56,344 bases of DNA. It comes from a virus. The translations under genes were made by a program, and so were the position numbers. The notes under the pieces were generated by a model. That model had not been told where the DNA came from, searched no databases, and was given only the letters and a program-made list of their open reading frames with translations. Shown here one piece after another: positions 19,331 to 45,330 of this stretch. The stretch spans positions 1 through 56,344 of the IMG/VR virus record IMGVR_UViG_3300045996_002189; one strand, given 5' to 3'. Each line of letters starts with the position of its first letter. The stretch's first letter is position 1.

Positions 19331-19395
19331 TGGGAACTGCCGTCTCCAGGCAGCAACGGAAAGTCGGTCTCCCGAAACGCGAGGAACACACTTGC

Positions 19396-19430
19396 TTGAC
19401 TTCTAACATTAGATGGTGTAATTTTACCCC
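19396..19430 (+). promoter_or_regulatory. Promoter and operator of RHH-tnpB operon
   Basis: TTGACT (19396-19401), 15-base spacer, TGTAAT (19417-19422). The -10 lies within the inverted repeat GGTGTAATTTTACCCC (19415-19430; arms match 6 of 7). The expected transcription start is about three bases before the ATG and no ribosome site is visible, so the message is probably leaderless. Autorepression by the RHH product is inferred. Confidence 0.5.
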
Positions 19431-19431
19431 T

Positions 19432-19587
19432 ATGGCTGAACACCTTGTCACATCCAAGATCACACCGGACTCCTTGCAAATGGTGAGAATGGTCGCCGCG
19501 AAGACGGGCGAAAAACAGTACGAAGTCGTGCGTCGCTTGCTTGAAGCAGAGATGCTGAGGCTTTCTCTGACGGCAGGTAGCCGCTGA
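19432..19587 (+). CDS. Small ribbon-helix-helix-like regulator
   Basis: 51 residues. A short strand (LVTSKIT) followed by two helices (PDSLQMVRMVAAKTG; KQYEVVRRLLEAEMLRL) fits the Arc/MetJ ribbon-helix-helix fold. Its TGA overlaps the tnpB ATG by one base (TGATG), so the two are translationally coupled. A similar strand-helix-helix gene also stands next to the second tnpB, on the opposite strand. Probable role is control of the nuclease promoter through the inverted repeat directly upstream; a protein partner role for TnpB is the alternative. Confidence 0.65.
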   Translation: MAEHLVTSKITPDSLQMVRMVAAKTGEKQYEVVRRLLEAEMLRLSLTAGSR

Positions 19588-20735
19588 TGCCGATTCTCAC
19601 CTACAAGTACCGTCTCTTTCCGAACCAAACCCAAGCCTCGGGTTTGACGGACATGCTCGGAAGTTTCTGTGATCTTTACAACGCCTGCCTTCAGCAGCGA
19701 ATCGAAGCCTATCAGCGACAAGGAAAGACGCTGAATTTCTACGATCAGGCCAACGAATTGAAAGCGGTTCGGGTAGTTGATGATCGGTTGGCCAGTTACA
19801 GTTTCAGTGCTGAACAGCAGGTTGTTCGCCGTCTCGACAAGGCGTTCAAGGCGTTCTTCGGCAGGGTCAGGCGAGGCAAGGGCGGCTTCCCCCGCTTCCG
19901 GGCGAAAAGCATGTTCGACAGTGCAGACTTCCGGGTTGGCGATGGGCTGACGATCCGCAAGAGCAAGAAACTCGGCATCGTCGGTATCCCCGGAGAAATC
20001 AAGGTGCGGTGGCACCGTGAGTTTCCTGTCGGGGCGAAGGTCGGAACCGCCGTGCTCTCCAGGTCGTGCGGCAAGTGGTATATCTGCTTCTCTATCGAAA
20101 CCCCCGACGCTTACGGACCCTACCCGCTCCGGGCTGTGGTCGGCATTGATATTGGGCTGACCAGCCTGATCGCAACCTCGGCCGGCGACACCGTTCCGAC
20201 TCCGAAATGGGTTGGTCAGGCATCCAAGAAACAGCGTCGTCTTCAGCGTGCCCTTGCCCGATGCAAGCGGGCGAGCAAAGGCAGGCTCAAGGCGAAGCGA
20301 AACCTTGCCCGACACAGTGCCCACGTTGCCAATCAGCGGCGGGACTTTTCGCGCAAACTGTCGCGGGCGTTGGTCGATCAGTATTCTCACATTGCCTTCG
20401 AGGACCTTAACATTACCGGACTGGCTCGTGGCATGCTCGCCAAGTCCGTTCTCAATGCCGCGTGGGCTCAGTTGATCTCGTTCACCGACTACAAAGCCGC
20501 GAATGCTGGCGGTCTGGTCGCGAAGGTCAATCCGCGCGGGACTTCCCAGGAATGCGACTGCTGCGGACTGGTGACGCCGAAAACGCTGGCCGACCGCATC
20601 CACGACTGCCCAGGTTGCGGGACAGTCGAGGATCGGGACGTTCACGCGGCAAAGGTCATCAAGCATCGGGCTTTTCCCTGGACAAAGAGGCTAGGAGCGA
20701 GCCTTGGAGCGTCAAGCCAGCCGGTTGCGGCATAG
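19587..20735 (+). CDS. tnpB: RNA-guided nuclease TnpB (element 1)
   Basis: 382 residues, normal size for TnpB. N-terminal wedge (YKYRLFPNQTQA; LYNACLQQRIEAY) and RRLDKAFKAFF are followed by the RuvC core. All three acidic residues are present: Asp in VVGIDIGL (about 191), Glu in IAFEDLNI (about 272) and Asp in EDRDVHAAKVI (about 352). The zinc ribbon CDCCG...CPGCG is intact. This argues for an active nuclease rather than a nuclease-dead TldR-type repressor. TnpB uses an omega-RNA made from the element right end to cut DNA next to a TAM. Translationally coupled to the RHH-like gene. Confidence 0.93.
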   Translation: MPILTYKYRLFPNQTQASGLTDMLGSFCDLYNACLQQRIEAYQRQGKTLNFYDQANELKAVRVVDDRLASYSFSAEQQVVRRLDKAFKAFFGRVRRGKGGFPRFRAKSMFDSADFRVGDGLTIRKSKKLGIVGIPGEIKVRWHREFPVGAKVGTAVLSRSCGKWYICFSIETPDAYGPYPLRAVVGIDIGLTSLIATSAGDTVPTPKWVGQASKKQRRLQRALARCKRASKGRLKAKRNLARHSAHVANQRRDFSRKLSRALVDQYSHIAFEDLNITGLARGMLAKSVLNAAWAQLISFTDYKAANAGGLVAKVNPRGTSQECDCCGLVTPKTLADRIHDCPGCGTVEDRDVHAAKVIKHRAFPWTKRLGASLGASSQPVAA

Positions 20736-20778
20736 CTTGCTTCAGAAGCCGTCGGCCTTTAGGCGGCGGATTGTTCAC
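20736..20778 (+). ncRNA. Right end / 3' part of omega-RNA
   Basis: Downstream of tnpB, CCGTCGGCC and GGCGGCGG (20749-20769) form a stem of eight pairs with one bulged G around a TTTA loop, then TTCAC at 20774-20778. In IS605-type elements the omega-RNA ends here and the bases that follow are the guide. The predicted guide would begin near 20779 and run into the tape measure stop region. The 5' end is not defined by sequence alone. Confidence 0.5.
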
Positions 20779-20784
20779 TGCCTG

Positions 20785-23700
20785 TTATCCCATCCCGGAC
20801 TGATTTCTCAATCCCCCCGGTCGAAATGCGCGCTGAATGCGTTCATCGACCATGCCTTGCAGTTCTCGAACGATGCCCTTGCCAAACGCCTGACCCTGCT
20901 GTTCCGTGGCGCCGGGAGGCTGCTGAACATTGATGGTGGGTGAAACCACGACGGTCTGGTTGCCACCGGCCGGACCGAGGGATGCCATCTGCTGGGGGGT
21001 GAAGACGCCCTCGTCCTTCTTAAGAATCGCTGCCATTTCTCCACCACCGAGTCCGGGAAGTTTGCTCTGCATGTTGCCGTTTGCTGGCAATTTTCCGGAG
21101 TGAAACCTCGGAGCGCCGACAAAAGTTGAATGAGGGACGGCTCGACTAGGGGCGTTGTCCCGCCCAACGATACCGCCGGTATGATAGATGCCGCCACCCG
21201 TGAGAGCCATAGGCGCACCCGTGGCGGCTCCCATCGCTGGCCCCATGAACATGGAACTGAGGCCCATCGCCAAGGGGATAGTGATAGCCTGCCTGACTGC
21301 CATGCGAGCCAAGTCCGCCGCAATGGCCTTGGCCATATCAGCGAATGCTTCCTTGACGCTTTTTGTCCCGGTTATGATGTCAACGAGGGCATCTTCGAGC
21401 GAACCGAGACCATCATAGCTGATCTGGCGCATGGACTCATTGAAAGTCATGCCGGAGTTGGCAAGGTCGTCCAGCGCGTCGTTCTGTCGTTCCAGGCGGT
21501 TGGTCAGGACGGCAGACTCACCCGCTTGCCGGATCAGAGCTTCGGTATGCTTGTCGGCCATGTCGGCACCGCGAGACTGAAGCTCGGCGGTCTTCTCAAT
21601 CTCCGCCATTTCCCGGATGCGAGCCTCGCCAAGCAGCGACATGGCGGCACTTTTCTGGTTAATGGTGTCGATCTCGCGGTCGCCCGATTTCAGGTCGCGC
21701 CTGACGCCGCTACCCATCTCAGCCACGGCTGCATCTCCGGCAGCCTTGATCCGCGCCTGCGCTGATCTGGTATTCAGGTCAGCGTTCTCCTGAATGAGGC
21801 GGTTTTCTTCCTCCAGTTCGGCCATGCGGCGAGTCCGGGAAATGCCTTCCAGATCGAGCGCCGCCACCATCTTGCCAATGGCAACCACTTCAGCCTCATA
21901 GGAGTCTTCCGCCGTGACGTTGGCTTTGTCCTGTTTGGCCTGTCCTTGCTCCATATACTTCTTGGTCAAAGCCTCGACAGCACCTGTGACGTTAAGAATA
22001 CCGCGCGCAGTCGCCTCCGCCCGTGCCTGTTCCTCAGCCTCCTGCTTGCGAAGCGCCTCTCCGCTCGCCATCCTCGCTTCCGTCAGTCGCTGAGTCTTCT
22101 GGGTTTCCTCATCGATCTGCGCCGCGCTACCCTTGAACGCAGTATTGTCCTGCGCATCGGCAAGCGCTCGAATGCGCGCCTCAAGTTCGGCAACCTGCTT
22201 CGGGTTGAACTCAAACTTCAGTTTCTGGACCTTGCGCAGGATCTCCAACTCACGGCGTTGCTTCTCGACCGCTTCGGTGCCCTGTCCATAAGCGGCGGTG
22301 ATGGCCTGCTCTGCCTGAATTTGCTGATCCAGTTCGGCTTTCTGCTCCTGGAAGTAACTGTCCGTGGAGCGACCGCCGCCACCACCACCCTTGCCTTTTC
22401 CTCCGCCTGTCTCCAAGCCCATAAGTGGCTTGTTGTTGACTGCGGGCTTCGGCTTCTGCCGACTGGCGATGGCGGCATCATCTTCCAAATGCGCCAGTTT
22501 CTGACGTAATTCCTCGACCTTGCCAGCGACTTCGTTAGCTGCTTCGCCGACGACATTGAACTCCTTGGCAACCTCATTCCCATTGAACTCAGGCTTATCA
22601 AGGTTGAGGGTCATCGTAATCGCTTCGTCCTTCCACTCCTTCGGCTTTTCCGGAGCGAGGATGTCGATCATCTCCTTGCGCTGACCCTGCATGGTGTCGA
22701 GCTTGGCCTGCTCAGCGGCAAGTGCCGTCTTGGTCATCTCAATGGCGAGGTCGCGCTGCGCCTCCGCCATGTCATCGGTGATCGCCTTGCCGCCCTTCAG
22801 TTTCTCGTAGTAGGAGTCGATGGCGTTTTCGGCACCCTGGACTTCCTTGGAAACGTCCTTGGTCTCATCACCGAAATACTCGGCCGCGAGACCGGCGACG
22901 CCGATCGCAGTTCCAGCCATTCCGATAAGTCCGGCGACCCTGCCCATCGGCGTCGCCCACATCGCCGCCGTGAGGATCTTGAATGCGCCAGCCAACTTGA
23001 TAACGGCAGAAGCCATGCCGATAAACCAGCCGAGTGCCTGGACGGCGACAATCGCGATCAGGGCGTTCTTCACCTTGTCAGCGTTATCGGCCAGCCAAAG
23101 CATCGCGTCGGCGGTGGCCCGGACAGCCCGACCCAGCGCCTCACCGATCTCCTGAGCCAGAACGCGACCCTCGATGCTATTCATCTTGGCTGCCAGTCGT
23201 TCGGCGGCGTCTGCCCAAGCATCAAGGAATCCGCTGTCCGCCATCAGCCTCTTGAAATCGTCCCAGGCGTTGGTCAGTCGGTTGACCGAGGCGCGGGCGG
23301 AATCCATCCGGTCAACGGGGAATTTGAGTTGCAGTTCCTGATTGAAGGAAGCGAAGAATTTCTCTGCGGAGATGGTTCCTTTTTCCATCTCCTTGAACAT
23401 GCGCTCCACGGTCATGCCCATAGCCGTGGCGGCGGTGTTGATGGCACCCGGCAACTGGTCGCCCAACTGGCCTTTTAGTTCTTCTGCATAAACCTGCCCC
23501 TTACTGGCGATCTGCTCAATGGCCTTTAAGGCGCGGCTTGTCTGCTCCTCGCTTTTGCCAAGGACCGACATCGCCTGAGACACACCGAAGAAGGCGTCTT
23601 TCGCGAGATTGGCATCAACGGAACTCCCCTTGATGGCAGCCAGGAACTTGATATAGTCGTCGGCGGCAGAGAGCGTGACGACGCCGAGACGATCCGTCTC

Positions 23701-25584
23701 TTCCCGCAGCCGCGCCATCTCCTGCTTGGCAACGGCGGAATCGCCGGTCACGATGTTCATCGCCTTGGTCAGGCTCTCGAACTTCATGCCGGTTTCAGCA
23801 AGTCCCTTGAGCGCAACACCGGCTCCGAGCGCGACCAACGCCGTGCGCAGTCCCATGGCGCGATCTGTGGCGCTGGAAATGCTGTCGTGGATCTTCTCGA
23901 ACGCCTTGCCGATAGTGGCGGCTGATCGGGTTGCCGCAGTTGCCGCAGATTGGGTCTGCCGCGCTATGCCCTGCGCTGCATTGCCTGCACCACCAGCGCC
24001 ACCGCCTACTCCACCAACACCTCCGGCAGTCGGCGGCACGGCGCCCCGTCCACCACCACCACCACCAGCACCGGCACCTCCAGGGCGCGGTGCTGCCGCC
24101 TGTGTCGCGGCAGCCGCTCGCTGTGCCGCTTGAGCGAATGCCGTGGCGGCTGCGCCTGCCGACTGCATAGCCGCTGTCGTGCCTTGGCTGGCAGCAGCGA
24201 CAGCCGCAGTGGATTGAGCCAAAGCGGTGTTGAATGCCTGGAGTGCTGGTATTCCAGCCCCGACTGCGCCACCAGCGGCTCCACCAGTTCCGGCATTCCC
24301 TATCGAGCCAGGAGCACCAACCGACGCCGACCCGCTCCCGACTGCGGGCTTGGCTGACCGCATGGAATTGGCGGCGCGAACTACAGCATCGGCTGCCTGT
24401 GTCGTTGCCTTCCCGAGGATATCGACAGCACGAGCCGCCGATGCGACCGCTCGCTCGAATGCCTGTGTGGCGGCATTTCCGGCGTTGCTCGCGTTACCTG
24501 AAGCAGCAACCGGAGACGAAGAGGGTGGTACGGATGGCGCAATGGTGACGGGGGCTGGCGTCGGTGTTGCCGCAGGCTGCGGAGCGGCAGTCGTCCGGCT
24601 TACCGTCGGAGTCCGGACCGACCGGAGAGCCGCCGCAGCACGCATTGCCGCATCAGCCGCCTGTGACGCGGCACGGGCATACACTTCGGCTGACCGCGAT
24701 GCCCCTGTAAGCGCCTGCGCAAGCCGCTGGGAAGCCCGCATGCTTTCAGTGTCGGCGGCAGCGGGGCGCGGCGACGCCACAGGTGCCGCCGGGGTCGAAA
24801 CGGAGGCAGGACGCGGTTCTACCGGCAATGGGCGCGATACCGGTGCCGACTGCGGAGTTTCCGGGGCTGATGGTGCCGCTTGGGGAACCCGGATCGAGCG
24901 GAACACCGCCTCGGCTCGCATCGCGGCATCCGCCGCAACGGATACGGCGCGAGCAAACCCATCGACAAGCCGGGATGCTCCGGTAAGAGCAGCACCCAAC
25001 CGCTGAGATGCCTGGACACTCTCACCTCCCACATCCCGGACAGAAGCAGGTGCCGGGGTAGGAGCAGGAGCACGCGGAGCGGCAACCGATGGAGATGGAG
25101 CCGAGGGCGCAGGTATGACAGGCGCAGGAGGAGGCTGGACAGGACGACTTGCCGAGACTGCTGGCGCTGGGGACGGCGCCGGAGCGGTTGTAGCAACAGG
25201 CGTTGCCCGGATCGACCGCATTGCCGTCGCCGCACTGGCAGCCGCATCGGCAGCCCGCGCTGCGGCACGAGCAAACGCTTGGGATGAACGGGTTGCTTCG
25301 GTAAGCGCCTGACCAAGACGCTGTGCCGCGCGAAGGCTCTCAGCATCCCCCGTGTTTCTGGCAGGAGATGCCGGAGCCGCGCCCGACCCGCCACCCGTCG
25401 CAGGACGCGCCGCTCCTCCAGCCGGGACCGATGCGCCGCGGAACTTCTCCAGTTGTCGCAGAGCCGCCAGCGCCTTGTCGGCACTGTCCGCAATCCGGTT
25501 GAGGGATTCCTCAATCCGCCTCGCCCCGGAAACCGAATTGCCGGGATCAATGCCGATTTCCAAATGCGCTTCCTGTTCAGCCAT
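20785..25584 (-). CDS. Tail tape measure protein
   Basis: 1599 residues. Residues about 80-500 are an Ala/Pro-rich region with four or five helical repeats separated by Pro/Ser/Val linkers. The tape measure domain starts near 555 (FEKIHDSISSATDRAMGLRTALVALGAG) and includes SRALKAIEQIASKGQVYAEELKGQLGDQLPGA, typical of this family. Hydrophobic helices at about 838-870 and 880-905 are candidate membrane-inserting segments. Long coiled coils follow. The C-terminus (about 1378-1440; SLEDALVDIITGTKSVKEAF) matches the lambda tail-tape C-terminal domain. Length sets tail length: about 0.15 nm per residue would predict a tail near 240 nm. Start at 25584 abuts the chaperone stop. Confidence 0.95.
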   Translation of the reverse strand: MAEQEAHLEIGIDPGNSVSGARRIEESLNRIADSADKALAALRQLEKFRGASVPAGGAARPATGGGSGAAPASPARNTGDAESLRAAQRLGQALTEATRSSQAFARAAARAADAAASAATAMRSIRATPVATTAPAPSPAPAVSASRPVQPPPAPVIPAPSAPSPSVAAPRAPAPTPAPASVRDVGGESVQASQRLGAALTGASRLVDGFARAVSVAADAAMRAEAVFRSIRVPQAAPSAPETPQSAPVSRPLPVEPRPASVSTPAAPVASPRPAAADTESMRASQRLAQALTGASRSAEVYARAASQAADAAMRAAAALRSVRTPTVSRTTAAPQPAATPTPAPVTIAPSVPPSSSPVAASGNASNAGNAATQAFERAVASAARAVDILGKATTQAADAVVRAANSMRSAKPAVGSGSASVGAPGSIGNAGTGGAAGGAVGAGIPALQAFNTALAQSTAAVAAASQGTTAAMQSAGAAATAFAQAAQRAAAATQAAAPRPGGAGAGGGGGGRGAVPPTAGGVGGVGGGAGGAGNAAQGIARQTQSAATAATRSAATIGKAFEKIHDSISSATDRAMGLRTALVALGAGVALKGLAETGMKFESLTKAMNIVTGDSAVAKQEMARLREETDRLGVVTLSAADDYIKFLAAIKGSSVDANLAKDAFFGVSQAMSVLGKSEEQTSRALKAIEQIASKGQVYAEELKGQLGDQLPGAINTAATAMGMTVERMFKEMEKGTISAEKFFASFNQELQLKFPVDRMDSARASVNRLTNAWDDFKRLMADSGFLDAWADAAERLAAKMNSIEGRVLAQEIGEALGRAVRATADAMLWLADNADKVKNALIAIVAVQALGWFIGMASAVIKLAGAFKILTAAMWATPMGRVAGLIGMAGTAIGVAGLAAEYFGDETKDVSKEVQGAENAIDSYYEKLKGGKAITDDMAEAQRDLAIEMTKTALAAEQAKLDTMQGQRKEMIDILAPEKPKEWKDEAITMTLNLDKPEFNGNEVAKEFNVVGEAANEVAGKVEELRQKLAHLEDDAAIASRQKPKPAVNNKPLMGLETGGGKGKGGGGGGRSTDSYFQEQKAELDQQIQAEQAITAAYGQGTEAVEKQRRELEILRKVQKLKFEFNPKQVAELEARIRALADAQDNTAFKGSAAQIDEETQKTQRLTEARMASGEALRKQEAEEQARAEATARGILNVTGAVEALTKKYMEQGQAKQDKANVTAEDSYEAEVVAIGKMVAALDLEGISRTRRMAELEEENRLIQENADLNTRSAQARIKAAGDAAVAEMGSGVRRDLKSGDREIDTINQKSAAMSLLGEARIREMAEIEKTAELQSRGADMADKHTEALIRQAGESAVLTNRLERQNDALDDLANSGMTFNESMRQISYDGLGSLEDALVDIITGTKSVKEAFADMAKAIAADLARMAVRQAITIPLAMGLSSMFMGPAMGAATGAPMALTGGGIYHTGGIVGRDNAPSRAVPHSTFVGAPRFHSGKLPANGNMQSKLPGLGGGEMAAILKKDEGVFTPQQMASLGPAGGNQTVVVSPTINVQQPPGATEQQGQAFGKGIVRELQGMVDERIQRAFRPGGLRNQSGMG
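24100..25345 (-). repeat. Helical repeat array in tape measure N-terminus
   Basis: Four clear units begin with S(L/V/M)(R/Q)A(A/S)QRL...AL(T)...ASR...AADAA...A.RS.R, each 45-50 residues, joined by 40-50-residue Pro/Ala/Ser/Val linkers; a more divergent fifth unit follows. Unit starts are near residues 81, 185, 278, 365 and 446. Confidence 0.75.
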
Positions 25585-26012
25585 CAGATGGGGTCCTCAA
25601 CAACAGGAGCGGCGGGGGTGACGGAGTCGGCGGCAGATGGTTCAACAGACACCGAACCGACAGGAGGATCTTTGGGTGGCGGAGGTGCCGCAGGCAACTG
25701 AAGCAGCGCGTTCATCAGGTCGCGCCCAACACTCGGCTTCGGCTTGTTCTCAGCCTCGGCCTCCGGAGAATGCTGCAGGATCTTCGGCATCAGTTCGTTC
25801 AGGTGGGGGAACTTGTCCACCCGGCCGAGATATGCCGTGTGCCATGCGTGCCAGAGATCGCGGGCACGGTCGTCAACAAGGTTCTCGTTGCGCGCCTCAA
25901 GGCACAGACGCAACTCGAACGGGGTCATGCGCCAGAATTGCTCCGGCAGAATTCCGATTTTGAAGGCGGTCTTGAGAGCACGCTTTATGCTCGCTTCGCC
26001 GCCTTCTTCTGA
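25584..26012 (-). CDS. Tail chaperone T region, made as G-T by frameshift
   Basis: The frame has an internal ATG at 25928, but it is open upstream through codons encoding ASIKRALKTAFKIG and LPEQFWRMTPFELRLCLEAR, well-conserved-looking sequence of alphaproteobacterial chaperone C-domains, before any ATG. It joins gene G in the -1 frame at AAACCCT. The C-terminal half is Pro/Glu-rich. Its stop overlaps the tape measure start. In lambda-type tails G and GT coat the tape measure before tube assembly. Independent initiation at 25928 cannot be excluded. Confidence 0.65.
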   Translation of the reverse strand, partial: SEEGGEASIKRALKTAFKIGILPEQFWRMTPFELRLCLEARNENLVDDRARDLWHAWHTAYLGRVDKFPHLNELMPKILQHSPEAEAENKPKPSVGRDLMNALLQLPAAPPPPKDPPVGSVSVEPSAADSVTPAAPVVEDPI

Positions 26013-26326
26013 GGGTTTTCGGATTCCTCACCAGAAGCCTCCGGCGCCTTCTGCGTGCCGAAGTAAGCGCAGTTGATGGCCGCGCCGACCGCTTCCATCG
26101 AGGCGATGATCGGCGGCGACATCCTCATGATGTCGGCAGGCGTCATGTCCGGCAGTTCATGCTTCAACCCGACCATCATGATGTCGGCGAGTTGCTTCGG
26201 GTCCATCAAGTTGTAGCCGTCGGGGTAGCGTTGGGACAGTTCCGCAATGGCGTCCCAGTCATAGCGCAGGGTTTGCGTCTTACCGCCAAGTTCGACTTGG
26301 ACGGTTCCAGCGATGTTGTTGGCCAT
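25985..26326 (-). CDS. G: Tail assembly chaperone G
   Basis: 113 residues from ATG 26326 (MANNIAGTVQVELGGKTQTL); upstream in-frame sequence is low-complexity and lacks family features. Contains LRYDWDAIAELSQRY and ADIMMVGLKHELPDMTPADI, the pattern of phage tail assembly chaperone / GTA TAC-like proteins. The last 15 residues are a charged tail encoded across the slippery heptamer. Located between the major tail region and tape measure, as expected. Confidence 0.85.
   Translation of the reverse strand: MANNIAGTVQVELGGKTQTLRYDWDAIAELSQRYPDGYNLMDPKQLADIMMVGLKHELPDMTPADIMRMSPPIIASMEAVGAAINCAYFGTQKAPEASGEESENPQKKAAKRA
26012..26018 (-). other. Probable -1 frameshift site AAACCCT
   Basis: In the G frame the codons are GAA AAC CCT, so the heptamer A-AAC-CCT fits X-XXY-YYZ. 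It lies nine codons before the G stop. After a -1 slip the frame is open to 25584. Frameshifted G/GT pairs are established for lambda and many long-tailed phages. Confidence 0.6.
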
Positions 26327-26415
26327 GAAATCCGAGGGTGAGAATGGAGTGGAAGGGAGAAGGTGAGGGGAAGGAGAAACGCGGGAACCAGAGAGACCGG
26401 AGAACCCGGAGGGAG

Positions 26416-27064: not shown

Positions 27065-27067
27065 GCG

Positions 27068-27190: not shown

Positions 27191-27194
27191 CTCA

Positions 27195-28985
27195 TCAAAA
27201 ATCCCAGAAGTTCGGCATGGCATGAGTCGAGGCTGTCGTGGTGCCGTATCCGACAGTGCCCATGTGTGACCAGTCAAGATCCTGGATGCCAAGAGCCTTG
27301 GCCGGAGAATCGGCGGCGAGAGAATAGTCGCCGGCAGCCGGGTTCTTGAACTTCGGGTCCGCGACAATCGAGTGGGCATCCAGCCCCGGCATCCGCGCCG
27401 CATTGTGCAGCAGGTTGTAGTCAACCGTATTGATGCCGGTGTTGTTCATCCTGTACGGCTGATCGACCGTTGATGTGCCGTAGGCGATATTCTTCTCGAT
27501 CACGTTGCCGGTAGCCTGAGAGCCGGCAGCGATGTTGCCGTTGTTGCTGACGGTGGCGACCTTCTCACCAGATCCCAGGATGAAGAAATTATTCTGGATC
27601 TTGTTGTTGTCGCCGCCATGAACCATCACGTCGGTCCAGGTCGTGCCCTTGACGAAGTTGCCGCGGATCGTCGTGGCATTGGTCAGGTCGTCAAGATAGA
27701 TGCCGGCGGCGCCGATGCCGTTCTCCTTGATGAAGCCGCCAGTGTCGTTGATGTAATTCCCCTCGGCACGGTGACCGTGAGCAAGGTTGCTGCGGCCCAG
27801 GAACTCAATGGCTCCGGTGTCGCCGCCGGAGCGGTTGGTGTGCTCAAGTTTGTTGTGCAGGACTGCATTGTTCAGTCCTGGCTCCGAACCACTGAAGTCC
27901 TTGAACGAGACACCGTAGCGCGCTGTATAGGAGATGTCGTTGAACGCTGCCGTGTTGTTGCTCGACCCATGGGCCGCGATCCCGCCCGCACTCGGATTGG
28001 CTTCCCCGATGTGCTGCATCTTGTTGAAGTAGACCTTGTTGCCGTCGCTGCGGGTTGCCATCTCGACGCCGCCGCCGCCGATGTGGGTCATCTCATTGCG
28101 GGCAATCAGGTTGCTGTCGCTGTCATGCAGCTTGACCGCCGTGCCCACGTTGGTGAACTTGTTGTCCCCGATCCGGTTGCCGTTGGCACCATTCAGTTCG
28201 ATGGCGAAGCCGCCCTTCAGCCCGTTCGTGAAGGTCAGGTCGGTGACAGTGACGTTCCTGGCCCCGGCAAGCTGCATCATCATGTGCATCTGGTTGCCGT
28301 TGAGGATCGGTTCCTCATCGCCGTATGCCTTGATCTTCAGCCCGCTGTCGGCCCCGGTCAGGGTCACCTTGCTCGTCTGATTATAGGTGCCGCCGCGCAT
28401 GACGACGGTATCAATGGTGGCATCGTCGCGTGCCAGTTGGGCTGCCTTGCCGAGCGACGCCACCGGGCCGTCTGTCCCCGCTGCGTTCGGTGCGGCCAAC
28501 TTGCCGGACCACGTATCTTTGCCATTCGGTGCGGTATAGTATGCTTTCACTGTCGTATCAGGCACAGGTGTCGGGGTGGGAGTCGGTGTCGGAACCGGAA
28601 ACAAACTGGCGGGAGCACTGAACTTCAGCGCCCCGTTCCACGGCATCTCGGATCGGCCAGCAATCACATCGACGTTATCCAGCGCGAACCTGTCGTAAGT
28701 CACGCCAGCATCCGTCGGCCGCATCGTCTTGTCGCCAACCTTGACCGACGAGACAGTCAGATTGCGGTCCTGACCAGCAATGACGGCGTCGTTGTCGTAG
28801 TGGACCTGCACCTTGTGTCCGACGCCAGCAGTCACGCTGGGGCTGAACGAATACGTCTTGGCAGTAGATCCGGCCGTCCCTTCCCCCACCTTCACGCCAT
28901 CCACGAGGACGCGAAAATGCGGAAACACGCCGCCCGCCGCTGTCCCCGATGCGGTGACAGCGATCTTCGCCGGAACCAATGCCAT
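27195..28985 (-). CDS. Carbohydrate-binding beta-helix protein
   Basis: 596 residues. The N-terminal about 120 residues resemble a calcium-dependent xylan-binding (CBM36/CBM60-like) beta-sandwich (FRVLVDGVKVGEGT; VQVHYDNDAV; DRNLTVSSVKVG). A TPTPTPTP linker (about 132-142) leads to a right-handed parallel beta-helix (about 150-596) with repeated N-rich turns (NRIGDNKFTNVG, NLIARNEMTHIGG, NKVYFNKMQHIGE), as in NosD/C5-epimerase-like repeats. It may bind or modify acidic polysaccharide. It sits inside the core tail module between major tail and chaperone genes, an unusual place for a glycan-active protein and a sign of insertion. Confidence 0.75.
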   Translation of the reverse strand: MALVPAKIAVTASGTAAGGVFPHFRVLVDGVKVGEGTAGSTAKTYSFSPSVTAGVGHKVQVHYDNDAVIAGQDRNLTVSSVKVGDKTMRPTDAGVTYDRFALDNVDVIAGRSEMPWNGALKFSAPASLFPVPTPTPTPTPVPDTTVKAYYTAPNGKDTWSGKLAAPNAAGTDGPVASLGKAAQLARDDATIDTVVMRGGTYNQTSKVTLTGADSGLKIKAYGDEEPILNGNQMHMMMQLAGARNVTVTDLTFTNGLKGGFAIELNGANGNRIGDNKFTNVGTAVKLHDSDSNLIARNEMTHIGGGGVEMATRSDGNKVYFNKMQHIGEANPSAGGIAAHGSSNNTAAFNDISYTARYGVSFKDFSGSEPGLNNAVLHNKLEHTNRSGGDTGAIEFLGRSNLAHGHRAEGNYINDTGGFIKENGIGAAGIYLDDLTNATTIRGNFVKGTTWTDVMVHGGDNNKIQNNFFILGSGEKVATVSNNGNIAAGSQATGNVIEKNIAYGTSTVDQPYRMNNTGINTVDYNLLHNAARMPGLDAHSIVADPKFKNPAAGDYSLAADSPAKALGIQDLDWSHMGTVGYGTTTASTHAMPNFWDF

Positions 28986-29035
28986 GGCTACCTACTTGAT
29001 TTTGTGGTCACGCGGCGGGACGGTCCGCGTCTGTG

Positions 29036-29242
29036 TCAGGAAGCCGACCCGTTGATATTGGACGACCACTGCCGCACCGGAGCGTAGCCGTCGTCACCAA
29101 CGGCATCGTGCGTGCGGACGAGAGCGGCAGGCTGATGCTTACGACCGGAGTCGCCAGCACAGTGGTAAACCTGCCCCTGCAGGTCGCCGTAGTGATGCTT
29201 TGAGCAGACGGGGCAGGTGTAGATGCCTCGGGTGGATGTCAT
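29036..29242 (-). CDS. Small zinc-ribbon protein
   Basis: 68 residues. CPVCSKHHYG near the N-terminus and YHCAGD at about residue 28 supply Cys/His ligands for one zinc site. Its ATG overlaps the stop of the GIY-YIG gene by one base (TGATG), so the two are coupled. It may be a native phage gene captured downstream of the endonuclease or an endonuclease accessory. Function unknown. Confidence 0.6.
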   Translation of the reverse strand: MTSTRGIYTCPVCSKHHYGDLQGQVYHCAGDSGRKHQPAALVRTHDAVGDDGYAPVRQWSSNINGSAS

Positions 29243-30213
29243 CAGAGAAGGCTCAGTTGGTCGGGGTGCGATGGCAGAGGAGCAGGAGCGGGACGGTCGG
29301 GGGAGGTGGGAGTGGGCGGCATGGCTTCAAGACCTTCCTGATATACCTTTAGGACCGTCTGTTTGCCAACACGGCACTTTTCACAGATGTACCGCAGAGA
29401 CTTTCCGGCAGACCGCAGTTTGAATATCTCCTGCCGCAAGGCTTCCGGCATAACCCGGTCGTAGTTCTTGCCGCCGCCTTCCCGCATGCACCAATTGCGG
29501 ATAGTGTCCTTGGTGGTGTTGTAGTCCTTGGCGATATCGACGTAGGTTTCGCCAGCCTTGCGGCGGGCGACGATTTCGGCAACTTGTTCTTTGGTTAGGG
29601 AGCGGTGCAGGTCACTTAGCTTTTGGACATACTCCACAGGCATCTTGCGTCCACGCAACTTCGCGGCCCGCTTTTCGATGGTCTCAGGAGACTGCTTGTG
29701 GCCGCGCTTCGCATCCCCGATCTTGCGGCAAAACTCAGCGGACTTCTTTTTGCCACGCCTCGTTGCTGCTAACTTTTCCTCGTGCTCCGGGGTGCGTTTT
29801 CGCCCACTCATAGTAGCTGACATCTTGGATCGTTGGGCATCCGAGATCACCTTCCCCATCGCAGCAGCAGACATCTTCGCCCTGGATTTTCCGTCTCTCT
29901 TGGTCCCCAGTTGGCTACCAGCAACTCTGCAAATGTTATAGGGACGAAGGGAGTCTTCCAAGAACGCTTTGTCTAAATAGACCTGCTCGCGAGGAATCAG
30001 ATTTTCCGGCACAGGAACGACTTCGATCACTGAGAAATCAAAGGCATCTTCGCCGTATTTATTCCACGCCCTCTGCAGATAACCATTGCCGTGACGGTTT
30101 CCCCGCAAATCCTTCCAGTGATCAATCTTCCGGCGTTCTAGGTTGATGGCACTGCCATAGTAGCAACGCCCATTCACAGTGTTAGTGATTTTATAAATTC
30201 CTGACACACCCAT
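29242..30213 (-). CDS. GIY-YIG homing endonuclease with NUMOD3 motifs
   Basis: 323 residues. N-terminal GIY-YIG catalytic domain: SGIYKITN and RCYYGSA give the GIY...YYG signature, followed by ERRKIDHW and an IPREQVYLDKAF segment with the metal-binding Glu. Central NUMOD3-type DNA-binding repeats (GRKRTPEHEEKLAATRRGKKKS; KRGHKQSPETIEKRAAKLRGRKM) occupy about 125-200. The C-terminal part holds two helix-turn-helix-like units (AGETYVDIAKDYNTTKDTIRNW; GKSLRYICEKCRVGKQTVLKVY) and a Pro-rich end. AGGTGG lies about ten bases before the start. It lies just after the major tail gene and has its own TATAAT box. Confidence 0.92.
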   Translation of the reverse strand: MGVSGIYKITNTVNGRCYYGSAINLERRKIDHWKDLRGNRHGNGYLQRAWNKYGEDAFDFSVIEVVPVPENLIPREQVYLDKAFLEDSLRPYNICRVAGSQLGTKRDGKSRAKMSAAAMGKVISDAQRSKMSATMSGRKRTPEHEEKLAATRRGKKKSAEFCRKIGDAKRGHKQSPETIEKRAAKLRGRKMPVEYVQKLSDLHRSLTKEQVAEIVARRKAGETYVDIAKDYNTTKDTIRNWCMREGGGKNYDRVMPEALRQEIFKLRSAGKSLRYICEKCRVGKQTVLKVYQEGLEAMPPTPTSPDRPAPAPLPSHPDQLSLL

Positions 30214-30246
30214 CTTGGATTTCCCACCTGATTAGATTTGTCAGGA

Positions 30247-30275
30247 ATTATAACGTGCCCTCGCTTGAAAGTCTC
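30247..30275 (-). promoter_or_regulatory. Promoter of GIY-YIG gene
   Basis: Minus strand: GAGACT (30275-30270), 17-base spacer, perfect TATAAT (30252-30247) inside CGTTATAAT. The -35 is weak. The predicted start is about 25 bases before the ATG. Confidence 0.5.
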
Positions 30276-30314
30276 GTCTGGGGTGCGTCTGCAAAACTGC
30301 TATTTGTGGGTATA

Positions 30315-30743
30315 CTACGCTGGGTTGAAGTCCCACACAATTGCCCCGGTCACCTCAAGGGTCACAGTTGCCGTCGTCAACGCATCGACGCCGCCGCCAA
30401 TCGTGAACCCCGTCACGTAGGCAGAGAATGTGGCGGTCGCATTGTTGGCGTCGGAGAAGGTGATCTTGAAATTCTTCTTAAGCTGAGCCGCGCGATCAGC
30501 AAGAAGGGATTGTTGTCCTGTATCTCCAGGAACAAATGAACATTCTAGGGATATAGTCCCTTCATCCTGGAGCCCCATAACCTTCTCCTTCCCTGTACTG
30601 GAAAGAGACGTGGCATCAATAATAGCTGCTGTACCGCCGGGACCGCTGAATGACCGAATTTCAGCAATGGAAACGTACGTGCCGGGCGTGTTTCCTTCAC
30701 GCGCGATGGTTGTGCCCTGGGCATTAAACGCGGCTGTCGCCAT
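30315..30743 (-). CDS. V: Major tail (tube) protein
   Basis: 142 residues. N-terminal MATAAFNAQGTTIAREG, then SIAEIRSFSGPGG, IIDATSLSSTGKEKVMGLQDEGTISLEC and KITFSDANNATATFSAYVTGF are the strand pattern of the lambda gpV / phage tail-tube fold with the usual ATSL...KE..GL.D.G block. No Ig-like domain is appended. It follows the tail terminator and two small genes and precedes the chaperone region, as expected. A hairpin terminator lies two genes upstream. Confidence 0.9.
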   Translation of the reverse strand: MATAAFNAQGTTIAREGNTPGTYVSIAEIRSFSGPGGTAAIIDATSLSSTGKEKVMGLQDEGTISLECSFVPGDTGQQSLLADRAAQLKKNFKITFSDANNATATFSAYVTGFTIGGGVDALTTATVTLEVTGAIVWDFNPA

Positions 30744-30772
30744 TTTGAACTAACTCCTATCTTTCTCAGGGA

Positions 30773-30997
30773 TTACGACGCAGCGACAGCGGTGCCGGGG
30801 ATGATGCGCAGCCACGCGGTCCCATTGGACACGGCGAGGCAGGGTGCGCCTGCGTTACCGTTGCTCACCCAAATCAGGCGACCGTTGTGGGCGGCAGCGC
30901 TGGGCAGTGTGGCGACGGTGTAGGTTGACAGCGTGTGGGACTTGGCGATGGCTTTGGAGCCGATCTGGCCGAAAGCGGGGTCGTTCTTGAGAGCCAT
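30773..30997 (-). CDS. Small hypothetical structural protein
   Basis: 74 residues with GRLIWVSNGNAG and AVSNGTAWLRI, a short strand-turn-strand motif also seen in the upstream gene (YSDGTAWQVI), so the two share a module. A GAGGATAT ribosome site precedes ATG 30997. Separated from the upstream gene by a strong terminator only 22 bases before the start. Function unknown; possibly a tail decoration protein. Confidence 0.65.
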   Translation of the reverse strand: MALKNDPAFGQIGSKAIAKSHTLSTYTVATLPSAAAHNGRLIWVSNGNAGAPCLAVSNGTAWLRIIPGTAVAAS

Positions 30998-31019
30998 GAT
31001 ATCCTCGATGGGCGGACGT

Positions 31020-31045
31020 AAAAAAGCCGCCCTTGAGGAGCGGCT
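31020..31045 (-). terminator. Rho-independent terminator
   Basis: AGCCGC-n9-GCGGCT followed by six T on the minus strand, between the gene ending at 31076 and the one starting at 30997. Confidence 0.8.
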
Positions 31046-31075
31046 GAGGTGGGCCGGGGTTGGCGGAGGCTGGGG

Positions 31076-31432
31076 TTAGGCGTTGTTGCCGTCGGCGGGC
31101 GGCGCGGGAGGCGCTTCGGCCGGGGGTGCGTCGGGCTGCGGCGCTGCCTGGGGCTCGCCTTCAGGCGGGGTCGTCAGTGCGGCTGCGGACGGCTCGGGTG
31201 CGGGGACGGCGAGGGGACCCGCGAAACTGATGACCTGCCATGCCGTGCCGTCGGAGTAGACGAGGCTGATGAAGTTGCCATCGGCGTCTTCGACTGCGGC
31301 GATGCGGCCTTCGTGCTTATCGGCGGGCGGCATGTCGGTGAGGATGTGGGTCGGCACGGCGTTGCCCTTGGCAGGCTTGGCGGCGTTGTCGGGCTTCTTG
31401 GCCTGACCTGGGGGAGTTGCGGGCTTTGCCAT
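31076..31432 (-). CDS. Small structural protein with Ala/Pro tail
   Basis: 118 residues from ATG 31432, with AAAAGGA six bases upstream; an earlier in-frame Met overlaps the terminator. Basic Lys/Ala/Pro N-terminus (about 1-27), a central strand-rich module with DADGNFISLVYSDGTAWQVI (about 48-70), and an Ala/Pro-rich C-terminus. The centre resembles the downstream 74-residue protein. Terminators on both sides make it a single-gene unit. Confidence 0.7.
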   Translation of the reverse strand: MAKPATPPGQAKKPDNAAKPAKGNAVPTHILTDMPPADKHEGRIAAVEDADGNFISLVYSDGTAWQVISFAGPLAVPAPEPSAAALTTPPEGEPQAAPQPDAPPAEAPPAPPADGNNA

Positions 31433-31458
31433 GTCGTCCTTTTGGGGTTTGGGGCATG

Positions 31459-31487
31459 AAAAAAGCCGCACCCGGAAGGAGCGGCTT
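31459..31487 (-). terminator. Rho-independent terminator
   Basis: AAGCCGC-n11-GCGGCTT followed by TTTT on the minus strand. It lies after the tail terminator gene and 26 bases before the next start. Confidence 0.8.
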
Positions 31488-31540
31488 GGCAGTGCTGACC
31501 TGTCTGTCAGCGACTAGGGAACTATGGGGACTTTAAGTGC

Positions 31541-31948
31541 CTAGATGGTTCGTAGCTCGTCATATACGAATTCAACGCGCACCTGCGTCTGGTCCATGGC
31601 GGTGTCGGCCTGACCGACTTCCGCGAGGCTGGCGGTGCCCATCTCCAGCGCGCCGTACTTCCGTCCCTCAAGGATGGTGACGACCTTGTGGGCGAGTTCG
31701 GTGCCGGTGCGGGTGCCTGTGCCGAGTGGGGTGAAGACCTGGGCGAAGCAGATGCCGGGGCGTTCGTAGTTGTAGGTGTTGCCGCTCCATGAGCGCAATT
31801 TGGCGGGTGCGTGGATGATGGTGAAGCGGACCCATGGGGACGAGTCCGGCATGGGCGGTGTCGTGTTGCCCCAGGCGATGGGCGTTGTGCTGCCCCATCC
31901 AGCCTTGAAGGCTGTTTCGATGGTGATCTTGGCTTCGACGGGAGTCAT
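31541..31948 (-). CDS. U: Tail terminator protein
   Basis: 135 residues. MTPVEAKITIETAFKAGW, WVRFTIIH, RPGICFAQVFTPLGTGTRTGTELA and a final TQVRVEFVYDE match the phage tail terminator (DUF4128 / lambda gpU-like) family. It caps the tail tube after elongation. Starts nine bases after the gp10-like gene stop. Position between neck and tube genes agrees. Confidence 0.88.
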   Translation of the reverse strand: MTPVEAKITIETAFKAGWGSTTPIAWGNTTPPMPDSSPWVRFTIIHAPAKLRSWSGNTYNYERPGICFAQVFTPLGTGTRTGTELAHKVVTILEGRKYGALEMGTASLAEVGQADTAMDQTQVRVEFVYDELRTI

Positions 31949-31957
31949 CGTCTTCGC

Positions 31958-32377
31958 CTATCGCTTCATTTCGCGGACGGCTGCCTGGATGGCGAAGGAC
32001 ATCATGCCGGCCGGGGCCTGCGTCCTGCTATGACCATCTTCCAGCAGTTCAATGTACGGCACGTTGTTCCGGATGATCCACTTGTCGCCGAATCGGTAAG
32101 CGCCGTGAACCTCCTTGATGTTGTTGAGGTTGATGGCGACCGCCTCTCCGAGCGTTGACCCTTGGAAACCTGGGACGTACTTCGGCTCTCCCATGAACGG
32201 GGAGTTGAGTTGGCTAACCCACCCCGACATGGCGCGGCTGGTGTCAATTGGCGTCATCTGAAACGCCGTGGTATGTGCCGCTCTGGCAACGCGCGTGACG
32301 AGGTTGACGTGCTTCTTCTTGACGTGATCGGTGAACGCCATCAATTGCGCGCGGAATTGCTTGGCGTTACCGGCCAT
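31958..32377 (-). CDS. HK97 gp10-like tail completion protein
   Basis: 139 residues. N-terminal basic helix, TPIDTSRAMSGW, and the diagnostic NNVPYIELLEDGHSRTQAPAGMM block of the HK97 gp10 family. Such proteins sit at the head-tail interface or help tail completion. Directly upstream of the tail terminator and downstream of the small membrane protein. Confidence 0.9.
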   Translation of the reverse strand: MAGNAKQFRAQLMAFTDHVKKKHVNLVTRVARAAHTTAFQMTPIDTSRAMSGWVSQLNSPFMGEPKYVPGFQGSTLGEAVAINLNNIKEVHGAYRFGDKWIIRNNVPYIELLEDGHSRTQAPAGMMSFAIQAAVREMKR

Positions 32378-32379
32378 GG

Positions 32380-32583
32380 TCAGTCGTAGTCCCGCTCTTC
32401 GGGCGGCACTTCGTAGGGTGCGTTACCATTCAGCAGTTCGAGCAGCATGATGAGCGGTAAGGCACATAGGCAAACGGTGGTGATCAGGTAAGCGCGCGTT
32501 ATCAGCACCGCGTTCAGGGCCGGTGCCGGAGGTCGTGTCGGCAGGTTTCTCGGCTTGCGCGCGGGGAAATTGAGGACGACCAT
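32380..32583 (-). CDS. Small membrane protein
   Basis: 67 residues from ATG 32583, with AAGGAG nine bases upstream; longer upstream codons are not needed. Pro/Arg-rich N-terminus (ARKPRNLPTRPPAP) then one hydrophobic helix (about 28-52, ITTVCLCALPLIMLLELL) and an acidic tail. Ends two bases before the gp10-like start. Function unknown. Confidence 0.6.
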   Translation of the reverse strand: MVVLNFPARKPRNLPTRPPAPALNAVLITRAYLITTVCLCALPLIMLLELLNGNAPYEVPPEERDYD

Positions 32584-32857
32584 GCGGCAGCGCTCCTTGG
32601 GGATGGGAGAGAAGGGCGGGCGTGAACCGCCCCTCACTCCTGGGCAGGCACCCCAGCGTTTTGCGGACTTGTGGCTCCTGCCGCAGGGTGCGCGGATGGA
32701 AAATGAACCCATCTGTGCGGCGTTGTATATACCCGAATCTGGAAGCCGCGTCCAGTCGCTAACGCACCCTTCGCCCACACGTCTTCGCACCGCGCCTCCG
32801 CGCCGTGGAAAAGCGACGTTAAGGTGCGGTTTTCCGACGATGCGCCGGGGTTGGCTG
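32584..32857. other. Intergenic region with weak promoter and hairpin
   Basis: No gene seen. On the minus strand TGGACG, 17 bases, TATATA near 32732-32760 is a weak promoter candidate for the genes to the left. GGGCGG...CCGCCC at 32614-32632 is a short hairpin followed by a pyrimidine run on the minus strand. The rest shows no clear signal. Confidence 0.35.
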
Positions 32858-33133
32858 TCAGGGTGTGTCTGCCATCCTCACAAACTTTGTGAACCACTTG
32901 GCCGCATCACGGCGCGGCAACTGCGCTGTAGCGCCGCCATCGACGGATGCGACTACCCACTGGAGTTTGGTCTTGTCTTCGTCAACGCGATGGATGATCC
33001 AGAGACTGTTTCCAACGCCTTCGTAGACACCCCCCACCAATAGACCCACGTTGGCTTCATCCAACTCCTTCGAATGAGGGTACCCGGAAAACGCAACAAT
33101 CGTTTGTGTCACTCTGAACTTCTGTTTCGTCAC
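32858..33133 (-). CDS. Phage protein, likely with transposon-altered N-terminus
   Basis: 91 residues from GTG 33133, overlapping the RHH stop as GTGA. After about 27 residues it contains GLLVGGVYEGVGNSLW, which mirrors the first 17 residues of the interrupted gene on the far side of the TnpB element (LIVGGIYEGMNYRL). The rest (IIHRVDEDKTKLQWVV; RDAAKWFTKFV) is a small alpha/beta domain. It may be the body of the original neck-region gene, now fused to new upstream codons and expressed by coupling to the RHH gene. Confidence 0.6.
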   Translation of the reverse strand: MTKQKFRVTQTIVAFSGYPHSKELDEANVGLLVGGVYEGVGNSLWIIHRVDEDKTKLQWVVASVDGGATAQLPRRDAAKWFTKFVRMADTP

Positions 33134-33306
33134 CCTGAAATCCTTTCCTGACTTTTCAGGCGCTCGCGGGCAGCCTCCTCCATCCACGCAGTAATACTCT
33201 GCTTCGAGGCAGCAGCAGCATGTTCGATATCTGCTTTTAGCTCAGCCGGAACACGCATACGAAGATCGACACGAAGTTCTCCAGGTTCTTTTTTGGGTCT
33301 CGCCAT
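33130..33306 (-). CDS. Ribbon-helix-helix regulator, divergent from tnpB
   Basis: 58 residues from ATG 33306. MARPKKEPGELRVDLRMRVPAEL supplies the basic arm and beta-strand; LKADIEHAAAASKQSITAWMEEAARERL gives the two helices of an Arc/MetJ-type ribbon-helix-helix protein. It is transcribed away from tnpB, with 49 bases between the start codons. Both promoters overlap the palindrome GGGATACATTATCCC. Its stop overlaps the start of the next gene. Probably an autoregulator that also represses tnpB. Confidence 0.8.
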   Translation of the reverse strand: MARPKKEPGELRVDLRMRVPAELKADIEHAAAASKQSITAWMEEAARERLKSQERISG

Positions 33307-33320
33307 GGGATACAAAAACC

Positions 33321-33349
33321 TTGATTAAGAGAATTTTCTGGGATACATT
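33321..33349 (+). promoter_or_regulatory. tnpB promoter, probably leaderless
   Basis: TTGATT (33321-33326), exact 17-base spacer, TACATT (33344-33349). The expected start, seven bases on, coincides with the A of the tnpB ATG at 33356. No ribosome site is present. Confidence 0.6.
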
Positions 33350-33354
33350 ATCCC
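33340..33354. promoter_or_regulatory. Operator candidate
   Basis: Perfect inverted repeat GGGATA-CAT-TATCCC overlapping the -10 boxes of both divergent promoters. A direct copy TGGGATACA also lies at the RHH start (33306-33314) and here (33339-33347). Confidence 0.6.
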
Positions 33355-33375
33355 CATGGAAACACCAGTACGCAA
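33347..33375 (-). promoter_or_regulatory. RHH gene promoter
   Basis: Minus strand TTGCGT (33375-33370), 17-base spacer, GATAAT (33352-33347). The -35 lies inside the tnpB 5' coding region and the -10 inside the palindrome. Confidence 0.5.
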
Positions 33376-34585
33376 GGTCACTTACAAGCTTTACCCGTCG
33401 CGGGCTCAATTGGTTGCGCTGCGGGAGACCATGCAGATGCACCAACAACTCTACAACGCCTGCCTAGAGCAGAGAATTGACGCTTACCGGAAAACTGGAA
33501 AATCAATCGGTTACGTTGAACAATGCCGCGAACTCACCAATCTGCGCCGGGAGTGCCCGGAATTCGCAAAATTCAACAGTTCGTCGCAGCAGGCTACGCT
33601 TCGTCGTCTCGACAAGGCGTTCAAAAATTTTTTCGAAAGGGTGAAGAAAGGAAAACGAGCAGCCGGTTTTCCTCGTTTCAAATCGCTTGCAGGATATCCC
33701 GGATTCGGTTTCAAAACCCATGGTGACGGTTGGCGGTTCATGCCGGGAGCGGACTGGAAACATGGCAAACTCCGTCTCCGGGGCATTGGCGTCATTAAGG
33801 CGCGTGGACAAGCCCGCCAAAGTGGCGAGATCAAGTCATGCGAACTGCTGCATCGCGACGGCGCGTGGCATCTATCGCTCACCCTGGAGTGCCCGGAGAT
33901 CATCAGGTATGGCGGTACGGAGGCTTGCGCCTATGACTGGGGCGTCGAAACGTTCCTGACTTTGGCCATCGCCAACGGTGATGCAGAACCGTCCATGGAG
34001 ACGGTCGAGAATCCGCGCTGGTTCCAGTCCGAAAAAGAGAAGGTTGCCAACCTTCAACGTGCAGTAACAAGGAAGAAGCGGGGTTCAAACCGGCGCAGGA
34101 AGGCCGTCCGAAAATTAGCAAAATCCCGAGCTAAAACAGCACGTTGCCGTTTGGACTGGCAGCACAAACTGTCCGCGGGAATGGTTGGACGGTTCGCCTT
34201 GATCGCATCAGAAAGCCTGTCCATCATGAACATGACCGCTTCTGCAAAGGGAACGGTCGAAGAACCGGGCAAGATGGTTGCCCAGAAGGCAGGGTTAAAC
34301 CGGGAGATCCTGGACACAGCCCCAGGTCAGTTTGAATCCCTTCTCAAGTACAAAGCGATGGAAGCTGGTACATTGAGAATGAAAGCCCCAACGCGCACGT
34401 TGAAGTCGTCACAGACCTGCCCGTGCTGCGGCTCAATCAAAAAGAAAACGCTAAACGAGCGGACGCACAAGTGCGATGACTGCAAACGCGTTATGCCTCG
34501 CGACTTTGCATCCGCCTTGGTTGTTCTGAATTGGGCACTGCATAGTTTGAAGCAAAGTGGTCTGGAACAGGCCGAAGCGGCGTAA
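33356..34585 (+). CDS. tnpB: RNA-guided nuclease TnpB (element 2)
   Basis: 409 residues. N-terminal wedge (VTYKLYPSRAQLVALRETM; LYNACLEQRIDAY), RRLDKAFKNFFERV, then RuvC: Asp in AYDWGVETFLTLA (about 194), Glu in IASESLSIMNM (about 283) and Asp in MPRDFASALVVL (about 382). Zinc ribbon CPCCG...CDDC is intact. All catalytic residues are present, so nuclease activity is expected. It is only distantly similar to the other TnpB and represents a different lineage (DWGVET type), so the two insertions are independent. Guided cutting by an omega-RNA from the right end is inferred from the family. Confidence 0.93.
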   Translation: METPVRKVTYKLYPSRAQLVALRETMQMHQQLYNACLEQRIDAYRKTGKSIGYVEQCRELTNLRRECPEFAKFNSSSQQATLRRLDKAFKNFFERVKKGKRAAGFPRFKSLAGYPGFGFKTHGDGWRFMPGADWKHGKLRLRGIGVIKARGQARQSGEIKSCELLHRDGAWHLSLTLECPEIIRYGGTEACAYDWGVETFLTLAIANGDAEPSMETVENPRWFQSEKEKVANLQRAVTRKKRGSNRRRKAVRKLAKSRAKTARCRLDWQHKLSAGMVGRFALIASESLSIMNMTASAKGTVEEPGKMVAQKAGLNREILDTAPGQFESLLKYKAMEAGTLRMKAPTRTLKSSQTCPCCGSIKKKTLNERTHKCDDCKRVMPRDFASALVVLNWALHSLKQSGLEQAEAA

Positions 34586-34667
34586 CAACCGCAAAACCGT
34601 TTTCAAGCAGCGCTTGGAGTCGGTAGTTCATGCCTTCGTATATTCCGCCAACAATCAGATTTGTCAT
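34491..34667 (-). pseudogene. 5' remnant of gene interrupted by TnpB element
   Basis: ATG 34667 overlaps the stop of the head-closure gene (ATGA), so this was a real coupled gene. It begins MTNLIVGGIYEGMNYRL and then runs into sequence antisense to tnpB, stopping after 58 codons. Only about the first 15-18 codons appear native. The matching segment GLLVGGVYEG occurs on the other side of the element at 32858-33133. Confidence 0.65.
34604..34616 (+). other. Right-end hairpin candidate of element 2
   Basis: CAAGC-agc-GCTTG, a perfect 5-bp stem 18 bases after the tnpB stop. It may belong to the omega-RNA 3' end. The usual GAAGCC...hairpin of element 1 is not seen here. Confidence 0.35.
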
Positions 34668-45295: not shown

Positions 45296-45330
45296 GTTGC
45301 TCACACGCTAAATGTTTAAAAGATCAGGAA

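Follow-up and report, generated by a model that had tools for sequence, protein, structure and literature searches.

Transposase-less TnpB elements of a phage, and related elements elsewhere, carry a candidate ribbon-helix-helix repressor

The virus contig record IMGVR_UViG_3300045996_002189 of IMG/VR (56,344 bases, called the window below) contains two transposase-less IS200/IS605-like elements, each of which pairs a gene for a TnpB nuclease with a small gene for a ribbon-helix-helix (RHH) protein. We propose that, in such elements, the RHH protein shuts down the operon that encodes it, and with it tnpB and probably the omega RNA. We give this interpretation a probability of roughly 0.74; an inverted repeat (dyad) over the RHH promoter covaries at the level of the family. 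Comparison across loci also shows that RHH genes are linked to TnpBs that appear catalytically intact, and that they have been acquired or swapped many times. The genes concerned are:

19432-19587, plus strand: RHH1, 51 amino acids, first gene of its operon
19587-20735, plus strand: tnpB1, 382 amino acids, RuvC D-E-D residues and zinc ribbon intact
33130-33306, minus strand: RHH2, 58 amino acids, divergent from tnpB2, matching Pfam RHH_1
33356-34585, plus strand: tnpB2, 409 amino acids, RuvC D-E-D residues and zinc ribbon intact

An initial annotation of the window had described two distantly related TnpBs with all RuvC acids and zinc ribbons in place, no TnpA, and an RHH-like partner for each nuclease in two different layouts. 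All of this was borne out. When aligned, both proteins retain the catalytic residues D194, E286 and D383 and the zinc-ribbon cysteines C355, C358, C373 and C376 (P0003 numbering). Both match OrfB_IS605, Cas12f1-like_TNB and HTH_OrfB_IS605 above the Pfam cut-off, and they are 35-38% identical to each other. A search of the window with a TnpA model built for this analysis found no Y1 TnpA transposase. The stop codon of RHH1 and the start codon of tnpB1 overlap by one base (TGATG), and RHH2 and tnpB2 are divergently oriented.

Both small proteins are assigned to the RHH superfamily. RHH2 passes the Pfam RHH_1 cut-off on its own sequence (21.7 bits against 20.5). RHH1 by itself has no Pfam match; in its family (A4, with L137, L138, L172 and L174), four of the five members match the Rv0623-like PSK_trans_fac and two match Antitox_RHH. 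The AlphaFold2 model of RHH1 (pLDDT 85.5) consists of an extended segment followed by helices at residues 12-25 and 29-49, the strand being unassigned by DSSP in the monomer model. Its best Foldseek matches are nearly all RHH proteins, with Rv0298, MazE, VapB, CopG, Arc, MatP and AmrZ as structural neighbours; none reaches E<0.05, as is expected given 51 residues. These family matches and the predicted structure place RHH1 in the superfamily. Structure prediction, which the initial annotation had proposed for both proteins, was uninformative for the fold of RHH2, where single-sequence AlphaFold2 returned one long helix. Direct searches gave no usable relative of RHH1 in known phages and plasmids, nor of RHH2 in IMG/VR. 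We rejected a reading of RHH1 as a degenerate TnpA, as it has another fold and motif and a conserved family of its own.

The pairing recurs beyond this phage. We surveyed 125 TnpB clusters, formed at 90% identity and limited to those with sufficient sequence before tnpB, a set that is RHH-enriched because some loci were collected via RHH searches: 25 have a co-directional RHH gene, four a divergent one, 24 a tnpA and 72 neither. RHH and TnpA never occur together (0/125). In samples collected from tnpB first, the RHH rate is 6/65 for viral clusters and 6/42 for Chloroflexota loci. None of seven named phages with tnpB has the RHH gene, and the pairing is thus not general among phages. Comparing the flank of tnpB with the rest of the locus, a check suggested at the outset, showed that, in the 65 viral clusters, the density of RHH open reading frames (ORFs) immediately before tnpB is about 20 times that in the remainder of the same loci (6 versus 3 matches, binomial p 2.8e-5), a figure to be read knowing that three seeds of the hidden Markov model stem from such loci. 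On the TnpB tree, the co-directional RHH label changes ten times, always forced by well-supported branches; by this phylogeny, the pairing has been gained or lost on at least ten occasions. The sister of an RHH-bearing TnpB is repeatedly one that has TnpA: tnpB1/L003, L174/L219 and L251/L218+L221 (same genome). The D-E-D residues are intact in 28 of the 29 RHH-linked TnpBs, the remaining one having a gap. Two outcomes that would speak against the pairing, lack of an RHH fold and lack of the association in related loci, were looked for and neither was found.

Two further loci deserve mention. L033/L088 has a 53-residue RHH-like ORF directly before tnpB (1808-1966) that the RHH models leave unscored and that is possibly a further member. 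In L007, right-end sequence stands twice in tandem behind one tnpB (4052-4145 and 4220-4310), possibly providing two guide ends.

Searches that began with the RHH proteins again led to tnpB. IMG/VR has a single near relative of RHH1, that of L137. It is 53% identical and immediately precedes a tnpB, with a GTGA overlap, even though the TnpB there is only 34% identical to TnpB1 (P0002). The RHH1 family has five matches in Chloroflexota: behind three of them stands tnpB or what is left of it, one lacks tnpB in the stretch examined and one lies at a contig end. An Arc-type RHH family (A3; Pfam Arc in 6/7 members) was searched in 301 Chloroflexota genomes, and the contexts around the matches were retrieved. 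Among the 40 strongest matches, 33 could be assessed, having sufficient sequence behind them; counted by hand, 31 of these are followed by tnpB on the same strand, about 11-102 nucleotides downstream. The next, weaker band gives 2/7. The matches span eleven genomes, with up to nine per genome.

RHH-tnpB operons, in which the RHH stop codon lies at or overlaps the tnpB start, were found in phage contigs L041, L042 and L137 and in Chloroflexota genomes. Copies within a genome have the left end (LE), the RHH gene, tnpB and the right end (RE) in common and little else, with identities of 78% over 1455 bp (L217/L230), 86% (L248/L289) and 95% (L309/L313); L041 and L042, on different contigs, are 79% identical over 1422 bp. 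In these relatives, the RHH gene lies between left end and tnpB and travels with them. It is under purifying selection, with 34 synonymous versus 4 nonsynonymous differences between L217 and L230.

Some loci depart from this arrangement. L305 and L318 are the two strong or fairly strong Arc-type matches with no tnpB downstream. L139/L164, from a Chloroheliaceae metagenome-assembled genome, is an RHH1-type element in decay, its RHH frame broken and its tnpB split by a frameshift. L138/L171 has an RHH1-family gene with the same leader (TCTAA...TAGAATTACACC-ATG) and no tnpB in the roughly 3 kb examined; it is perhaps a tnpB-less remnant.

The case for repression rests on the DNA before the RHH gene. 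In RHH-tnpB operons, promoter-like -35 and -10 boxes stand immediately before this gene and would leave its message with almost no leader. A scan restricted to short gaps missed the wide operator and was replaced by a wider scan and a fixed-centre permutation test, in which right arms were re-dealt among the loci of 32 non-redundant operons. The resulting evidence is at the level of the family and comes mainly from Arc-type relatives, not from the two elements of the window. A dyad is centred 14.5 bp before the RHH start (-14.5), extends across the -10 box and takes in the start codon of the RHH gene. Complementarity about this centre is 61%, compared with 39% after re-dealing (z=10.9; 0/5000 permutations), and the next-best centre reaches only z=2.3. 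At offsets 8-12 each of the four pair types is represented, which points to compensatory change in the half-sites. A control with 23 tnpA genes gave nothing comparable at -14.5 (z=-0.5), and single-locus dyads with p<0.05 were found at 16/40 RHH loci versus 1/23 upstream of tnpA. The half-sites lie about 21 bp, or two helical turns, apart, for example:

L292: CATGCACCC...GGGTGCATG
L295: CCATGACACT...AGTGTCATGG
L304: GCCATACTAGAA...TTCTAGTATGGC

The operators also follow the proteins. Near-identical DNA-facing strands go with shared operators across genomes (GCCGTT in L217/L308, ACACGT in L299/L302), and the strands are near-identical in the three most similar operator pairs. DNA-facing strand residues correlate with the operator (Mantel rho 0.23, p=0.013), in contrast to inward residues (p=0.33). 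Both the covarying dyad and this tracking are as RHH autorepression predicts. Two candidate operators were located in the window:

19396-19422, plus strand: candidate operator 1, promoter-like TTGACT...TGTAAT with the dyad TCTAA-CA-TTAGA (19402-19413), from sequence
33307-33355, no strand: RHH2/tnpB2 intergenic region, candidate operator 2, with GGGATA-CAT-TATCCC (33340-33354) and GGGATAC (33307-33313)

Several observations weigh against autorepression. The dyads of both window elements are not significant by themselves (p=0.067 for candidate operator 1, p=0.43 for candidate operator 2); the regulatory role that the initial annotation gave to the RHH proteins is supported directly by the covarying dyad of relatives. 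In the RHH1 family (n=5), no -14.5 dyad was found; in L137 a 12-bp dyad occupies the same place as in element 1 (-24.5), where it is not significant, and TCTAA is also present in L138. The Mantel test (n=15) yields a weak correlation, and helix identity correlates too (p=0.036). In addition, most tnpB elements have no RHH gene (72/125 clusters; 7/7 named phages). Finally, the dyad lies within the left-end region and could conceivably act as a single-stranded DNA structure in transposition.

In the main rival explanation, the RHH protein is a transposition accessory factor: bound close to the left end, it would assist a Y1 (HUH) TnpA, provided in trans, in excising or inserting the element. TraY and NikA would be parallels next to HUH relaxases, and two Arc-type members match Pfam TraY weakly. 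The placement of the RHH gene in the tnpA slot beside the left end, its complete separation from TnpA in the survey, and the TnpA-bearing elements that share a genome with some of the RHH-bearing ones (G093, G101, G077) would also suit such a factor. We nevertheless consider it unlikely, as the covarying dyad keeps a constant distance from the promoter and the start codon, but not from the end hairpin, and extends over the -10 box. Many IS1341-type elements with tnpB alone have spread without an RHH gene.

Considerably less probable is a toxin-antitoxin module, in which the RHH protein would bind TnpB and neutralize it directly, as RHH antitoxins do with their toxins. RHH1 has its nearest matches among RHH antitoxin models and structures, the order of RHH first and nuclease second is that of a classic operon, and toxin-antitoxin operons are autoregulated as well. 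However, the proteins are about 45-60 residues long, barely beyond the RHH domain, and have no long C-terminal toxin-binding tail. Moreover, one RHH family accompanies widely different TnpBs, as the comparison of P0002 with L137 illustrates (34% for TnpBs, 53% for RHHs), which speaks against a protein-protein interface. The view that these are incidental phage or host genes that chance to adjoin tnpB insertions could draw on the commonness of RHH genes in phages and on the location of RHH2 on the phage's own coding strand, but is largely refuted by the RHH gene travelling with the element in relatives, by its place between left end and tnpB in divergent relatives too, by the 31/33 strong Arc-type matches that adjoin tnpB, and by the borders of element 2, within which RHH2 falls.

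These borders, and those of element 1, were placed as follows:

19337-19353, plus strand: probable LE hairpin of element 1 (CTGCC-GTCTCCA-GGCAG), from sequence and fold; exact left border not fixed
20745-20778, plus strand: RE of element 1 and 3' end of the presumed omega RNA, hairpin GCCGTCGGCCTTTAGGCGGC followed by GGATTGTTCAC
32861-33133, minus strand: 3' part of the interrupted phage gene, from the flank-joining test
33134-34631, no strand: extent of element 2 (LE, RHH2, tnpB2, RE), from the flank-joining test
33147-33160, plus strand: LE hairpin of element 2 (CCTGA-CTTT-TCAGG), from sequence; within the 3' end of RHH2
34597-34631, plus strand: RE of element 2, from fold; hairpin followed by TAGTTCAT, junction 34631/34632
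34632-34667, minus strand: 5' part (12 codons) of the interrupted phage gene, from the flank-joining test

Four cuts were tried in the flank-joining test, and only that at 34632 rejoins an open phage gene of 103 codons (MTNLIVGGIYEG joined to VTKQKF...) from the flanks of element 2, with no target duplication needed. Because excision of 33134-34631 restores this gene, RHH2 lies inside the element; the target flank TCAC supplies the rest of its stop codon. Coupling of RHH2 to the 90-codon ORF behind it (GTGA overlap) was rejected, that ORF being the rest of the interrupted phage gene. A left-end hairpin beyond the RHH gene is also present in the divergent relatives L020, L076 and L098. At element 1, the right junction is 20778/20779, where the hairpin is followed by GTTCAC, and DNA homology to the TnpA-bearing relative L004 stops at about 20779. 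Both elements have a right-end hairpin, built on the same plan, and a left-end hairpin, probable in the case of element 1; RHH and tnpB are the only genes within the borders, with neither a tnpA nor a serine recombinase gene among them. Rfam has no match anywhere in the window, and a search for an empty insertion site in a named phage found none. The RHH gene is part of the mobile unit in element 2 and in relatives, and by homology in element 1.

Each locus consists of left end, RHH gene, tnpB and right end, with the RHH gene filling the slot of tnpA in autonomous relatives. Under the autorepression model, two RHH dimers would bind the half-sites on one face of the DNA and block transcription of the RHH gene, tnpB and the omega RNA derived from the tnpB transcript. 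Omega RNA is processed from tnpB mRNA (PMC10278001), and repression of the operon would therefore limit the guide too. The resident element would thereby stay quiet. Speculatively, entry into a naive cell or dilution of the RHH protein could release a burst of TnpB that cuts empty sites. In the divergent layout, a single RHH-bound site may control both genes. A tentative extension, which we hold to be rather unlikely, is that exchangeable operator-specific repressors have replaced TnpA, such that elements of the same type silence each other and entry into a cell of another type induces TnpB and homing. If true, RHH types would define incompatibility groups among RNA-guided nuclease elements, an immunity-like form of control.

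Other genes of the window include those for tail-tip, minor tail and head-closure proteins. A free-standing GIY-YIG endonuclease with resolvase-type helix-turn-helix repeats (29242-30213, minus strand) is likely a homing endonuclease, which would bring the mobile nuclease genes of this phage to at least three. Two neighbouring genes (43496-45304 and 45387-47180, minus strand) have strong Pfam Phytase matches, which is unusual for a phage genome, and one of them additionally has an RTX repeat.

In the open full-text literature, where the search was made, we found no earlier description of TnpB elements with a dedicated RHH partner. The control of tnpB expression is not a settled matter, nor is the way in which transposase-less TnpB elements last in their hosts and do them no harm. 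A repressor of their own, acquired over and over and with an operator that can be read, would answer part of both. Such a repressor and its operator would also offer a genetic handle on TnpB activity and add a protein-level layer of control to the ancestors of Cas12 nucleases.

Among known systems, the elements resemble the IS1341 group of the IS200/IS605 family, which likewise has TnpB and left and right ends, lacks a transposase and is presumably mobilized in trans. They differ in that tnpB is the sole gene there, whereas an RHH gene lies inside element 2 and the relatives of both elements. A survey of TnpB elements in six species recorded tnpA with tnpB (IS605a-c), a serine recombinase with tnpB (IS607) and tnpB alone (IS1341) (PMC9956272); none of these organizations includes an RHH gene, unlike the elements here. 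In the IS605 elements L003 and L004, the nearest relatives of tnpB1 (TnpB 67% identical), TnpA occupies the same slot and orientation as the 51-residue RHH1, and there is no promoter dyad before tnpA.

The TldR proteins, reportedly described by Wiegand et al. in 2024 as nuclease-dead TnpB homologues that act as RNA-guided repressors, are similarly phage-borne TnpB relatives tied to gene regulation. However, TldR loses the RuvC catalytic residues and is itself the regulator; the TnpBs here keep D-E-D and would be the regulated party, the regulator being a putative DNA-binding protein. The toxin-binding extension of type II antitoxins is absent from the RHH proteins of this study. A parallel in regulation is with Arc/CopG-type autorepressors and RHH antitoxins, which are also small RHH proteins, encoded at the head of an operon whose promoter bears a dyad. 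In the present case such a dyad was seen across the Arc-type family, and the partner is the RNA-guided nuclease of a mobile element.

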